From a virus, in the IMG/VR virus record IMGVR_UViG_3300017971_000190, positions 62,001-126,000 of that record: a stretch of 64,000 nucleotides of DNA; one strand, 5' to 3'. Position numbers and translations under genes: made by a program. Each line of letters begins with the position of its first letter. The first letter of the stretch is position 1. Under the pieces are notes generated by a model. The model ran no database searches. It was not told the DNA's origin and saw only the letters and a list, made by a program, of their open reading frames with translations. This document shows positions 28,431 to 36,532 of this stretch, piece after piece.

Positions 28431-30002
28431 ATGATTTTGAAAATCATCCCCATCCGTCCCGCTGGAAGACCACATCTGAAAAATATTAATCGTTACGTAG
28501 AAGGTTCTGAATTTTCAATAGAGCTTCATACGTTTAATGACGAAAAGACGTATGAGGCTTGGCTTGTAGAAAGAACCTCCATAGAAAGTATTGAGCACAG
28601 TACACTAAATATTCACGATTATAAAGGATTGGACAGCTGGCAAGTATTTGTCGTAGATGTTGAGAATTTCTTAGATGGAGACTTTGTTGTTTCTACTCAA
28701 ACCATTCTTTGCAATCGTATATTTCTGCTTAACGACAAGGGAAAGACAGTAGACACATTTAACACAACAAATCCATTAGTATTTCCTAGAAAGCGAGAAA
28801 ATGAAACTAAATTCATAGATGGACATGGAGGTACTGTTGAAATAGAAGATGGAAAAATTAAACATACTACACCATTAAAAAATGTTTTTGAATTAAAAAA
28901 TGTTTTTGATGGACTGAAAGAAAGTGTGGGGCAAGAATTTAGAAAAAGGCAAGAATTCGTAGCAAATTTAACTGAAGAACAAGAAAAAGAACTTGGAGCG
29001 CATTTTTATGGTGGTAACATTGGAGGGAAGGTAGAGGTTATAGAAGGGGTAACAGTCAAACCTTTAACTGTCGATAAACCAACTCCTTGTCCCTCCATTC
29101 TTCATTGGTGTACAGAACTGAAATATCTGGGCGGTAAAAATGTTTGGCCAGAGAATTTAAAAACTTTACTAGCTGCTTTTCAGGAACAGTGCCCCTCTTG
29201 TGGAGCTGCCCTTCGTTACGGTCGTTGTGTTCTTTGTGATAAATCCAAACAAGAATTATTTTCTCACCCGATCAATGAGGTAGTAGGAATTAGAGGGCAA
29301 CGCACTGGTAGCAGCTTTCTATCGGCCATAGCTGCTACCTACCAGTTACAAAAAATACTCTCTTTAGATATGAGTTTAAGTACCTACTATGATATGCCTC
29401 CTACGGAATTTGAAATGGTACTAGTAGATCCAGGAAAACATATTTGGAATCACTTTTGGGAATTAATACACAATTCACCTTGGTTTGAGCAATACTGGAG
29501 TTTCTTAAAAAATGCAGTTAATTGGGGTTTCAGTAGACCTAGCAATGATAAAGCTATTTTTACTGCCAACGAAAAGACGAATTTAATTGTACGAAGAGGA
29601 GGAGTGGAAGAGAACTACAAAGGAAAAACCAGAATTTTTGCTGCCATAGATGATCCAGATTGGGTAGATTGTTATGGTAATAAAGATAAACGGGTTCCTA
29701 TAGTAGATATTTATACAAGCCTTAAGAGTAGCCTTTCAACGGTGAAAAAGAAAGCTAACGATCAAAATTATAAATTGCAACCCTTGTTGTGGTTAATGGG
29801 TCCTCCTAACGGAGAAGGTGTAACTAAAAGTCTTCTTAGAAAAATAAAACAAGCTAAAAAGAAAAAAGTCAACCAACTAATTCTACATCAACCAACTTGG
29901 GAAATTAATCCAGAAACCAGCGAGGAAGAACTACGGAAAGAAGCCAGAAATGATGCAGAATTTCGTCGTGACTTTGGTGCTGAATTTGTAAAAGTGAAAT
30001 AA
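28431..30002 (+). CDS. Terminase-large-subunit-like ATPase without nuclease domain
   Basis: 523 residues with AAAGGAG upstream. Residues 1-115 are the LLNDKGKTVD module also found at 27188 and 57843. CPSC...CVLC (254-269) is a zinc ribbon. GIRGQRTGSS (286-295) stands at the Walker A position but has Ser in place of the usual Lys. FEMVLVDPGKHIWNHFW (327-343) and FAAIDDPDW (403-411) resemble the terminase ATPase strands, with DD for the Walker B DE. PTWEINPETSEEEL...FGAEF (488-519) is the segment that normally links ATPase and nuclease domains in large terminases. The protein ends there, and no RNase-H-like nuclease frame follows. It may be a split, regulatory or degenerate terminase. Confidence 0.68.
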   Translation: MILKIIPIRPAGRPHLKNINRYVEGSEFSIELHTFNDEKTYEAWLVERTSIESIEHSTLNIHDYKGLDSWQVFVVDVENFLDGDFVVSTQTILCNRIFLLNDKGKTVDTFNTTNPLVFPRKRENETKFIDGHGGTVEIEDGKIKHTTPLKNVFELKNVFDGLKESVGQEFRKRQEFVANLTEEQEKELGAHFYGGNIGGKVEVIEGVTVKPLTVDKPTPCPSILHWCTELKYLGGKNVWPENLKTLLAAFQEQCPSCGAALRYGRCVLCDKSKQELFSHPINEVVGIRGQRTGSSFLSAIAATYQLQKILSLDMSLSTYYDMPPTEFEMVLVDPGKHIWNHFWELIHNSPWFEQYWSFLKNAVNWGFSRPSNDKAIFTANEKTNLIVRRGGVEENYKGKTRIFAAIDDPDWVDCYGNKDKRVPIVDIYTSLKSSLSTVKKKANDQNYKLQPLLWLMGPPNGEGVTKSLLRKIKQAKKKKVNQLILHQPTWEINPETSEEELRKEARNDAEFRRDFGAEFVKVK

Positions 30003-31797: not shown

Positions 31798-32171
31798 AAC
31801 CAAAATTAATAGATGAACTTCTAAAAAGAGCTGACAAGTGGATCACTCAGGCTTTAGGAGATCCAGAAAATTACATTCCACCTTGGGATTTAACAAACGA
31901 TAAACCAGTTGACATTTGGATAACAGCAGCTTCTTACTTACTCATAAAGTTGCTAGAACTTAAAGCTGTCAGTGAAGGTGAACAGACAACAGCTCTTTAC
32001 GACTCTACTGCTGTGGGTGTACTTTGTCGAGCTAGGCACCAAGGTAAACCTGTAGAACTTATTTTGAGATCTCAATTGGGGTTGAATAAAGAAGAATCTC
32101 TAGTTATTTATCTCGTTCCTATAACTAGTGATGGTGAACGGGATTGGGAACAACCACCAGCTTATGCCTAA
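31794..32171 (+). CDS. Hypothetical protein
   Basis: 125 residues, ATGA overlap. Helical N-terminus, beta C-terminus (VELILRSQLGLNKEESLVIYLV). Unrecognised. Confidence 0.5.
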   Translation: MKPKLIDELLKRADKWITQALGDPENYIPPWDLTNDKPVDIWITAASYLLIKLLELKAVSEGEQTTALYDSTAVGVLCRARHQGKPVELILRSQLGLNKEESLVIYLVPITSDGERDWEQPPAYA

Positions 32172-32532
32172 GAAACAACCAACGGTAGCCAGTCTTAAAA
32201 AGTTACTGGGCAACCAAGCCTACACCATAACCGAAGAACGGCTTATTCAAGACAAAATTGAGCAAGTCCTAACAGACAGTAAAATAAAACACCTTCGTGA
32301 AGCTCAACTAACTGAAAGTGATCGCATAGATTTTCTAGTAGATACCATTGGTATTGAGGTTAAACTTAAAACCCCTATTACTCAGGTTACCAGGCAGCTC
32401 CACCGTTACGCTCAAAGTGGTCTCATTTCAGAGTTGCTTTTAGTAACCACTTCTCCCCAACTTCAAAGCGTAGTTCGAGAATTCAACAACAAACCAATTC
32501 ACGTTCTTCTTCTAATTACCGCTCTCATTTGA
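32164..32532 (+). CDS. PD-(D/E)XK-type nuclease-fold protein
   Basis: 122 residues from the ATG at 32164. LREAQLTESDRIDFLVDTIG (45-63) then IEVKLK (64-69) gives Asp56 and the Glu65-x-Lys67 pair of the PD-(D/E)XK core; ITQVTRQLHRYAQSG and ELLLVTTS complete the fold's alpha-beta order. Small phage proteins of this type resemble restriction-endonuclease or Holliday-junction-resolvase folds. It lies immediately upstream of a helicase, so a recombination or repair role is plausible. Confidence 0.62.
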   Translation: MPKKQPTVASLKKLLGNQAYTITEERLIQDKIEQVLTDSKIKHLREAQLTESDRIDFLVDTIGIEVKLKTPITQVTRQLHRYAQSGLISELLLVTTSPQLQSVVREFNNKPIHVLLLITALI

Positions 32533-32856: not shown

Positions 32857-35800
32857 GTGTCTTCCCTTCCCAAAACTTACGGTCGTTTTTGGCTTAAAGA
32901 TTCTACTTGGCATGTGGCTTGTGAACCACATGTCATGATTAGATTAAAGCGTACTTTTGACAAAGTACGAAAAGACCAGTACGATGTAATTACTCTAGCA
33001 GACTCTCCAGAAACCTGCCGTGAACTTCTTTGGTTCACCCTTCGTTTTCCTCTCACTGCTATTGATGAACCCACCCAATTTTACCTGGAAGAGCAAGCTG
33101 AAAAACATGAAAGGGAGGAGAAGGAAGTACACCTGCTACTGAGCGGTGAGGTGGAACCCAAAAACTTTAAACTTCGTTTGCCTCTTCGCCCATACCAACG
33201 TATTGCCACCGATTTAGCTCTTAAAACAGGAGGATTATTAATTGCTGACGATCTCGGAACTGGAAAGACTGCTTGTATTATTGGTATGTTTACAGATCAA
33301 CGTACCAGACCAGCTTTAGTTGCTACTCTTGCACATCTCACTTATCAGTGGCAAGCTGAAATAAATCGCTTCGCTCCTGAACTTACCACTCACATAATTA
33401 AGCAGGGAAAGTTTTACCAATTTTCTAAAGACAACATTTTTCCAGATGTTCTTATAACTAGTTATTACAAGTTGCATAGTTGGGCTGAGCATTTAGCTGG
33501 AAAAATTCGTTGTGTAGCCTTTGATGAAATACAAGAACTAAGACATGGAGAAATGAGTTTAAAAGGTTCAGCATCTTTTCATATTTCTGATCAAGCATCT
33601 TTCAGAGTCGGCGCTAGCGCTACTCCATTTTATAATTACGGCGCTGAAATGTTTAATATTATGAAAGCCCTTCGTCCTGGAGTACTAGGGACTTTCTCAG
33701 AATTTGCTAGGGAGTGGCTCAGCTGGGATGGTAAAAAACTAAAAGATCCCAAAGCATTTGGAACCTATCTTCGCGATCATGGTTATATGATTCGTAGAAC
33801 CAGAGAAGATATTAGGAGAACTATTCCCACCCTTACTAAAGTTCCACATTGGATTGATTTTGATTTTGAAGCTCTCGACGCTTTAAAATCATCGGCAGAT
33901 GAATTGGCTCTTTCTATTGTTCGATATGATCCAACTATTGATGAAGAGACACAAAAAGACAAATTCGCTAGAGAAAATGAATTCAAGCAACTTTTACGAC
34001 AAGCAACTGGAATTGGAAAAGCTCCCTATGTTGCAGAATTTGTCCGCATGCTTGTGGAAACTGGTGAACAAGTAGTTGTATTTTTGTGGCACCGCGAATG
34101 TTATTCGATACTAAAAGATCGTCTTAGTGATTATAAACCATCTATGTATACAGGTTCGGAAAGTCCACAACGAAAAAGAAAACAGTTTAATCGTTTCGTG
34201 AGAAAAGAAACTCCAATATTGTTAATTTCTCTCCGCTCAGGCGCTGGACTAGACGGTCTTCAATATCATTGCCGCACTGTCGTTTTTGGAGAATTAGATT
34301 GGTCCCCCGGAGTTATGGAGCAATGCTTAACAATGGAAACAGAAATTTTAACTAAAAAAGGATTTTGCAAAGAAAATGAAGTAGAAGTTGGAGATGAAGT
34401 AGCCGCTTTTGATATAAAAGATAGTAGTATTAAATGGAAGCCAGTTCTGCATAAAGTTTGTAGAAAGTTAGGTAAAAAAGAAAAACTTTTTTACACAGAG
34501 ACGAAAAAAATGGCTTTTAAAGTTACTGGAGATCATAGACTTATTGTGCGGCGTAGTAGACGCACAATTTCAGGAGAAAATAGGTCTGATTGGAAATTTA
34601 AATTAGCAAAGGACGTAGCTGGTAAAAATAGACGATTTGTTCCTACGTGTGGTTTGGAAAAAACTATAGGTGTTGATCTCACAAGTTATGAATTAAGGTT
34701 TTTAGGGTGGTATATTTCTGACGGAAGTTTTAATGGTAATCAAGTAACCATTTACCAAGCTGCTCATCAACCTTGGAATGATGATATTGTAGAAGTTTTA
34801 AATGGTTGTGAATTTACTTGGTATAGATATGAAAGGATTAATACCAACGGTAATTTGTTATATATGTATTGTGTACCAAAAGGGAACGTACAACGTTGGA
34901 CTAAAAATGAAATAAGTACATTCATAAAAATGAAGAAAAAAGGAGTTTCTTATAAAGAAATAGAGGAAAAAATTAATAGACCTAGAAGTAGTCTTTATAA
35001 AAGGTGGGCAAAATTTAAATCGGGTTACAAATATGAATTGATTCCTCCCAAAAATCGAACTACTAAGGGTTGGGAATATTTAGAAAAATATTTAGACAAA
35101 AATTTAAGTCCACTTCTAGAAAACGTTACTCGTGAACAACTAATAAATATTATTCACGGACTTTATATGGGGGATGGTACTAAAAATGAAAGTCGTGAAA
35201 ATGTGGTAATGATTGGCGGTACTAACAAAATTCTTTTCGATCGTCTGCAATCATTATGTGTAAGACGTGGGATGTCTGCTACTATATCTACACACAAAAA
35301 ACCAAAAGATCCGAATAGAAAAATCTCACATACTATTTATATATCTAAATTTGAAGATGCTTACATACCCGGTCCTAATAAACCTAATGTATTGTCAGAA
35401 GTGGAACCAACAAAAAATGAGAAAGTTTGGTGTGTTACAAATGAATTAGGAACATTGGTTACCAGGTATAATGGTAAAGTTGCTGTAGTTGGAAATTGTA
35501 TAGGTCGGGTACATAGAGACGGACAACTAGATGACGTAACAGCTTACTTTTTGTTAGCCAATGGGGGAAGTGATCCTTACGTTTCAGAACTGTTAGGAAT
35601 TAAAAGAGCCCAAATAGAAGGCGTCAAAGATCCAGAAGGTGCCGTTCTTCCCAATTACGATTTAGATAACGTTTCTGTAAAAGAACTAGCGCTTAACTAC
35701 ATGAACCAACGACAAGAAGGAAAGGCGGTAGAAGTCATGCCAACAAACAGAAAAAATTTAGAAACTTATCCTTTGGAAAGTGAAGAGAGTAACATTAAAG

Positions 35801-36042
35801 CCTACTTAACGGACGAAATTAAAATTGAGTTGTCTGAAGGTTTAGCCAATTTTACAAAGGAGAATGATCTGCTAGATCTTATTGACAAAGAACTACTAAC
35901 AGGTTTCTTAAATTCCCTTGGTTTAAAACCCTCTAAAAAGCTGCATAAAAAATTGGTTAAAAATTTGTGCCTGTCTCTTTTAGAAGCTGCTTGTAGAGCG
36001 ACTATCAATGATCGAAAAGTAATTAAAACACATGACTTGTAG
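32857..36042 (+). CDS. SNF2/SF2-type DNA helicase interrupted by an intein
   Basis: 1061 residues from a GTG. Extein: RPYQRIATDLAL and DDLGTGKTA (motif I, 131-139), FDEIQELRHG (motif II, from 222), GASATP (motif III, 252-257), LLISLRSGAGLDGL (motif V), then the motif VI sequence EQ|CIGRVHRDGQ split by the intein. After splicing the protein is about 670 residues. SMARCAL1-like or phage SNF2 helicases move along or anneal duplex DNA. It follows a PD-(D/E)XK protein. Fold and motifs are clear; the cellular role is inferred. Confidence 0.88.
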   Translation: MSSLPKTYGRFWLKDSTWHVACEPHVMIRLKRTFDKVRKDQYDVITLADSPETCRELLWFTLRFPLTAIDEPTQFYLEEQAEKHEREEKEVHLLLSGEVEPKNFKLRLPLRPYQRIATDLALKTGGLLIADDLGTGKTACIIGMFTDQRTRPALVATLAHLTYQWQAEINRFAPELTTHIIKQGKFYQFSKDNIFPDVLITSYYKLHSWAEHLAGKIRCVAFDEIQELRHGEMSLKGSASFHISDQASFRVGASATPFYNYGAEMFNIMKALRPGVLGTFSEFAREWLSWDGKKLKDPKAFGTYLRDHGYMIRRTREDIRRTIPTLTKVPHWIDFDFEALDALKSSADELALSIVRYDPTIDEETQKDKFARENEFKQLLRQATGIGKAPYVAEFVRMLVETGEQVVVFLWHRECYSILKDRLSDYKPSMYTGSESPQRKRKQFNRFVRKETPILLISLRSGAGLDGLQYHCRTVVFGELDWSPGVMEQCLTMETEILTKKGFCKENEVEVGDEVAAFDIKDSSIKWKPVLHKVCRKLGKKEKLFYTETKKMAFKVTGDHRLIVRRSRRTISGENRSDWKFKLAKDVAGKNRRFVPTCGLEKTIGVDLTSYELRFLGWYISDGSFNGNQVTIYQAAHQPWNDDIVEVLNGCEFTWYRYERINTNGNLLYMYCVPKGNVQRWTKNEISTFIKMKKKGVSYKEIEEKINRPRSSLYKRWAKFKSGYKYELIPPKNRTTKGWEYLEKYLDKNLSPLLENVTREQLINIIHGLYMGDGTKNESRENVVMIGGTNKILFDRLQSLCVRRGMSATISTHKKPKDPNRKISHTIYISKFEDAYIPGPNKPNVLSEVEPTKNEKVWCVTNELGTLVTRYNGKVAVVGNCIGRVHRDGQLDDVTAYFLLANGGSDPYVSELLGIKRAQIEGVKDPEGAVLPNYDLDNVSVKELALNYMNQRQEGKAVEVMPTNRKNLETYPLESEESNIKAYLTDEIKIELSEGLANFTKENDLLDLIDKELLTGFLNSLGLKPSKKLHKKLVKNLCLSLLEAACRATINDRKVIKTHDL
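34324..35496 (+). mobile_element. Intein with LAGLIDADG homing endonuclease in helicase motif VI
   Basis: 391 residues in frame inside the helicase. Cys1 begins CLTMETEILT (block A), TGDH (68-71) is block B, FLGWYISDGS (126-135) and IIHGLYMGDGT (276-286) are the two LAGLIDADG helices, KNEISTFIKMKKKGVSYKEI and RPRSSLYKRW (194-228) form a helix-turn-helix-like insert, and VWCVTNELGTLVTRYNGKV then AVVGN (368-391) is blocks F and G followed by Cys+1. The penultimate residue is Gly rather than the usual His. The motif VI site QxxGRxxRxGQ is a highly conserved target, typical of intein insertion. Confidence 0.9.
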
Positions 36043-36274: not shown

Positions 36275-36532
36275 ATGAGAAAAGCCGTACCCGCCTTCAT
36301 AGTTATTTTTTCGTTGTTTTTTCTAGCTTGTAATCCTTGTGAACCAGGCGCTCAACGTTGTAACGGAACCATTGTTGAAATTTGTCGCCCTGATAAAAAA
36401 TGGCACAAAGTTCAAAATTGCTCAAAATTGCATAGAACCAAAATGGTCCACAGGTGTAAATGTATTAAACCGGATGGGAAAATCAAATGTTATTGTTGTC
36501 CCATCTCTTCTGCTAAAAAGGAGGTTAATTAA
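36275..36532 (+). CDS. Cysteine-rich lipoprotein
   Basis: 85 residues with AGGAGA upstream. Residues 1-18 are a signal peptide (MRKAVPAFIVIFSLFFLA) ending in a lipobox LFFLAC, with Cys19 for lipidation. The mature part has Cys spacing CNPCEPGAQRCNG...VEICRPDKKWHKVQNC, like repeats in surface lipoproteins of Myxococcota and related bacteria, followed by a basic Cys-rich tail. Phage lipoproteins often block superinfection at the host envelope; this role is inferred. The ATG of the metallopeptidase gene follows three bases later. Confidence 0.65.
   Translation: MRKAVPAFIVIFSLFFLACNPCEPGAQRCNGTIVEICRPDKKWHKVQNCSKLHRTKMVHRCKCIKPDGKIKCYCCPISSAKKEVN

Follow-up and report, generated by a model that had tools for sequence, protein, structure and literature searches.

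The window analysed here, a stretch of 64,000 bases corresponding to bases 62001-126000 of a virus record of 221,679 bases, carries at 34324-35496 (+ strand) a LAGLIDADG intein of 391 amino acids that divides motif VI of a phage helicase. We consider it very probable that this is an active, mobile class 1 intein, belonging to a phage family that homes into motif VI of SF2 helicases. Taken singly the intein is ordinary, and its 'non-canonical' end, a penultimate Gly followed by the terminal Asn (GN), is the rule in its family. The most likely reading is an ordinary class 1 homing intein that would be competent in splicing and is novel mainly in the position of a helix-turn-helix (HTH) insert. 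The support found at the sequence level comprises the boundaries, the intact catalytic residues, the empty alleles, the relatives at the same site, the constant Gly and the predicted HTH fold.

The host gene is a single open frame (32857-36042, 1061 aa) that includes the intein and both exteins, and its product is a phage SNF2-type SF2 helicase (phrog_62 DNA helicase, E 3.2e-74; SNF2-rel_dom, E 3.4e-16). The N-extein (32857-34323, +) covers motif I through the first residues of motif VI, ending in WSPGVMEQ, and is 40-50% identical to the best phage helicases. The C-extein (35497-36042, +) starts with the +1 Cys and contains the remainder of motif VI (CIGRVHRDGQ) and the C-terminus of the helicase. 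Defence-system models match the helicase in the SNF2 core only. The GC content of the intein is 32%, as opposed to 40% in the N-extein and 37% in the C-extein. Directly upstream of the helicase, at 32128-32532, there is a small protein of unknown function (phrog_5928, E 2.2e-29), and the place immediately before the helicase is taken in several relatives by a small gene of Cas4-like or endonuclease type. A small Cys-rich frame with a signal- or lipoprotein-like N-terminus follows shortly after it (36275-36532) and has no matches to defence models. A remote terminase large subunit at 28431-30002 (phrog_17415, E 6.5e-16; no Pfam matches) supports a tailed phage.

The boundaries of the intein can be placed to the codon: 34324-34326 encodes Cys1, 35494-35496 Asn391 and 35497-35499 the +1 Cys, i.e. 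the insertion lies between the Gln and the Cys of motif VI. When the exteins are joined they read WSPGVMEQCIGRVHRDGQ and align without gaps to intein-free homologues. The sequence-only reading had placed a LAGLIDADG intein at this very position and had proposed a search for intein-free alleles in relatives, and both points are borne out. Motif VI is unbroken in 86 of 87 related phage helicases (7/7 deposited phage helicases and 79/80 from viral contigs), and in the sole exception, L075, a homologous intein sits at the identical codon to that of the window. Searches with the intein itself added five further phages (L102, L104, L105, L107 and L109), and the inteins at this codon (L075/L103 and these five) are 38-53% identical to that of the window. 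The +1 Cys is already present in 54 of 78 distinct intein-free sites, so the intein exploits a residue that is commonly supplied by the host motif. Searched against the whole record, the model TIGR01445 (intein_Nterm) exceeds its cut-off of 24.5 bits (25.1 bits, with neighbours) and gives no second intein N-terminal match, while the Pfam Hint models score under their cut-offs. An AlphaFold2 model of the intein built on a 66-sequence alignment has a pLDDT of 94.3 and a pTM of 0.88, and its best Foldseek matches in the PDB are inteins with HINT and LAGLIDADG domains (PI-SceI, TliVMA, PhoVMA, PI-PfuI).

The splicing blocks were compared in 66 aligned family members. Block A (CLTMETEILTKKGF, residues 1-14, 34324-34365, +) provides the nucleophile Cys1, found in 66/66, and T6, E7, L9 and G13 are also invariant in the family. 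Block B (VTGDH, 34513-34554, +) contains T68-x-x-H71, in which His71 (B:10) occurs in 66/66 and Thr68 in 64/66, with Ser in the other two. Block F (EKVWCVTNELGTLVTRY, 35419-35469, +; in the window intein read as KVWCVTNELGTLVTR) contains no His, has Cys370 at position F:4 and shares Trp369, Cys370 and Arg381 with all 66 members. In block G (GKVAVVGN, 35473-35496, +; in context NGKVAVVGN before Cys) the penultimate Gly390, encoded by gga, is found in 66/66 and the terminal Asn391 in 64/66, with Gln in two; Gly384 is also invariant. Cys1, the Thr and His of block B, and Asn391 followed by Cys+1 are the residues of a class 1 intein, although the penultimate His that is usual (not obligatory) in this class is absent and Gly390 stands in its place. 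No His that could replace it is found in block F or G of the window intein. A Cys at F:4 is a common variant, the second commonest residue at this position in inteins (PMC4031507). Assignment to class 3 is ruled out by the presence of the Cys1 nucleophile and the absence of the WCT triplet: the respective positions are occupied by Leu73 (B:12) and Val389 (G:5), and only Cys370 at F:4 fits.

The intein is probably an ordinary and active class 1 homing intein. Judging by its class 1 residues, the Gln-Cys1 bond would undergo an N-S acyl shift started by Cys1, the N-extein would pass to Cys+1, Asn391 would cyclise, and joining of the exteins would restore Q-C-I-G-R. The suggestion of the sequence-only reading that splicing controls the helicase would hold only in the trivial sense that motif VI is split in the precursor; no sign of regulation was found.

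The family to which this intein belongs came into view only with alignments; a single sequence as query, be it the intein or the N-extein, matched nothing in viral contigs. Aligning the window intein with that of L075 led to nine viral loci, and a wider alignment to 170 related stretches from which 79 distinct loci were retained. Full-length inteins, representing 73 distinct sequences, were read at 79 loci, one on a Planctomycetota MAG contig and 78 on viral contigs. All 79 begin with Cys1, and the +1 residue is Cys in 71, Ser in 7 and Thr in 1. A plasmid search gave two weak matches only, and a scan of genome contigs the Planctomycetota contig and one weak match. In the former (L111, 3,326 bases) the intein occupies 1772-2842, and the contig may be a phage or prophage fragment.

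The penultimate Gly is present in 79/79 loci (77 GN, 2 GQ), a count obtained with two scan patterns in blocks A and F that exclude the penultimate residue and with confirmation by similarity to the window intein, so that distant inteins ending in HN could be under-sampled. The two GQ cases (L172 and L174) lie just upstream of motif V; there the terminal Asn has become Gln and the Gly is kept. The Gly spans three adjacent positions in motif VI as well as other sites in SF2 helicases, and 13 of 14 other named phage and plasmid inteins that we inspected also end in GN. The literature points in the same direction: class 1 mycobacteriophage inteins frequently have no penultimate His (PMC5050341), and inteins without it are able to splice (PMC7664689). 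In the RDF intein of phage Bethlehem, the nearest experiment, the native Gly316 protein was fully spliced at time zero while about 50% splicing of the G316H mutant required over 5 h (PMC5050341). The homologous BPBiebs31 intein has 317 residues, a block F with VWCLRV, and TGN as its end. The sequence-only reading had correctly noted the non-canonical Gly before the terminal Asn and had added that such a variation slows or conditions splicing in other inteins; as a statement on the window intein this second part is unsupported and runs against the Bethlehem result and the constancy of the Gly, which is probably the native, co-adapted state of the family. The replacement of the penultimate His by Gly tends to be described as an exception; in this widespread phage family it is constant across 79 loci. 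An intein-like insert in the tape measure gene of Gordonia phage Mcklovin (L093) has VWC in block F and, as its candidate end, TSN before Ser rather than GN.

One could still imagine a conditional intein, in which the penultimate Gly, together with Cys1, Cys370 and Cys+1 that might form disulfides, makes splicing slow or redox-dependent and thereby times the activity of the helicase. Three of its cysteines are indeed in or close to the active site, two of them (Cys1 and the F:4 Cys) invariant; a role as sensor of oxidative stress has been suggested for a class 3 DnaB intein (PMC6195587), and the RDF intein showed disulfide conformers when mutated to G316H (PMC5050341). Nevertheless, we think this improbable. 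Complete splicing is seen in the native form of the tested phage intein, whose block F is similar and which shares the penultimate Gly, the F:4 Cys is a common residue, and the Gly is constant whatever the type of helicase or the site, i.e. it is not tuned to the helicase of the window.

The endonuclease part also appears intact. The first LAGLIDADG motif (block C, YELRFLGWYISDG, 34684-34725, +) includes FLGWYISDG with Asp133, conserved in 61/66, and forms a helix at residues 121-133 of the model. The second (block E, EQLINIIHGLYMGDG, 35131-35178, +) includes IIHGLYMGDG with Asp284, conserved in 56/66, forms a helix at residues 270-284 and is recognised by PF14528 (LAGLIDADG_3, E 1.8e-7). The endonuclease fold matches PI-SceI and I-DmoI. 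In both the splicing and the endonuclease parts dN is far below dS, a comparison made on close relatives within the family, since the nearest relative of the window intein is too distant, and one in which synonymous sites are saturated. These data bear on the idea that the intein is decaying, i.e. that the missing penultimate and block F His mark a loss of function that leaves the helicase split and inactive. Blocks F and G have no His and general Hint models score low, as such decay would have it, but the remaining catalytic residues and both LAGLIDADG Asp residues are present, 391 codons are read without a stop, all relatives have the identical Gly, and close relatives are under strong purifying selection. 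Degeneration is rejected in view of the Gly in 79/79 loci, the low dN relative to dS in the relatives and the conserved blocks of the 66-member alignment, and we regard a decaying intein as extremely unlikely.

An intein with an active endonuclease would cleave helicase alleles that lack it, at their motif VI codons, and would be copied in during repair. The distribution of the intein is sporadic against intein-free kin, and inteins are often closer to each other than their host helicases are (48% vs 33% identity for window and L106, 57% vs 44% for L102 and L105), a pattern that fits horizontal spread within the family. The pair of window and L107 is reversed, with exteins more alike than inteins (62% vs 53%), and recent homing is thus unsupported for this pair. 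Rough pattern sorting places 70 of the 79 loci in motif VI, seven by motif V and two elsewhere. The motif VI insertions occupy three neighbouring positions within four codons, i.e. before Q-x-x-G-R, after the Q and after Q-x; those of L106, L113 and their kin are two codons upstream of the window site, in related helicases. Across the loci L102-L182 and L111 the motif VI sites occur in both SNF2-like and ResIII-like helicases, and other sites flank motif V. L107 is the partner of the window intein on the intein tree (98/97), and both fall inside a nine-member set (100/99) that also contains the neighbouring-site inteins L106, L113 and L114. About 12-13 changes of site label are required on this tree, meaning that neighbouring sites have been exchanged repeatedly.

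As the sequence-only reading had proposed, there is an HTH-like segment between the two LAGLIDADG helices: profiles and the model place it at residues 194-232 (34903-35019, +), with helices at 194-205, 210-217 and 221-232 (AlphaFold2 on 66 sequences, model pLDDT 94). A profile of six such segments matches 2lvs (1.5e-10), a Myb-like domain (0.004) and GcrA (0.011) in the PDB, with designed proteins also among the matches; all six segments match phrog_323, a family of phage transcription regulators, and the Pfam match of the window to HTH_28 is weak (E 0.089). The isolated segment gives a poor predicted fold (pLDDT 65) and only weak fold matches in the PDB, none of them significant. Among 185 sequences searched, the HTH was found only in six inteins of one clade and in one free-standing frame of 67 aa in L166; it is absent from L106, L113, L109 and the remaining family members. 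Its presence is explained by one change on the intein tree, from which columns filled in less than 30% of the rows, those of the HTH insert among them, had been removed.

It is plausible that the HTH extends DNA recognition, as an accessory DNA-contacting module restricted to one clade. The segment could instead be a structural linker with no role in DNA binding, as its weak conservation (19-34% identity to the window among the six members) and its absence from L109, an intein at the same site, and from every other family member may indicate. This is possible, although we lean against it, because a three-helix HTH is predicted with high confidence in the context of the intein, its profiles match DNA-binding HTH domains, and it is retained in six divergent phages. 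We further speculate, tentatively and with more doubt than we attach to the linker, that these phage inteins are specialised for SF2 helicases, that they cyclise Asn without the usual His, perhaps via the F:4 Cys, which like Cys1, the block F Arg and the penultimate Gly is invariant among them, and that the endonuclease of one clade gained an HTH between its LAGLIDADG halves which alters the sites it targets around motif VI. What deserves further attention is the HTH insertion and the way in which related inteins cluster on motif VI. With this family two questions become directly testable: how Asn cyclises without the penultimate His, and whether the HTH insert shifts the choice of homing site.

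It is useful to compare this intein to the closest known systems. The Bethlehem gp51 RDF intein (PMC5050341) is also class 1, with Cys1 and a penultimate Gly, but its host is a metallophosphoesterase-type RDF, its +1 residue is Ser, and its splicing has been tested, whereas the window intein is known from sequence. HTH-like accessory domains are already known in the TliVMA and PI-TkoII inteins (PMC8966425), and in TliVMA (PDB 7qss, 7qsu), the second-ranked PDB fold match, the accessory domain widens recognition to a second site and lowers specificity (PMC8966425). TliVMA likewise combines HINT, a LAGLIDADG endonuclease and an HTH-like domain, but it resides in an archaeal VMA protein and its accessory domain links the endonuclease to the C-terminal HINT part; the position between the LAGLIDADG helices is the less ordinary feature of the window intein. 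The SNF2-family helicase host is shared with the Deinococcus radiodurans Snf2 intein (PMC4031507, PMC5222942), which is however class 3; in the window intein, by contrast, position 1 is Cys and the Trp and Thr of class 3 are absent. Among named phages, the nearest relative in both sequence and fold (TMq 0.76) is the intein of Salinibacter phages M8CC-19 and M31CC-1, which also ends in GN and resides in an SF2 helicase, but is inserted near motif V (GN before TEGYND), has no HTH and contains another insert.
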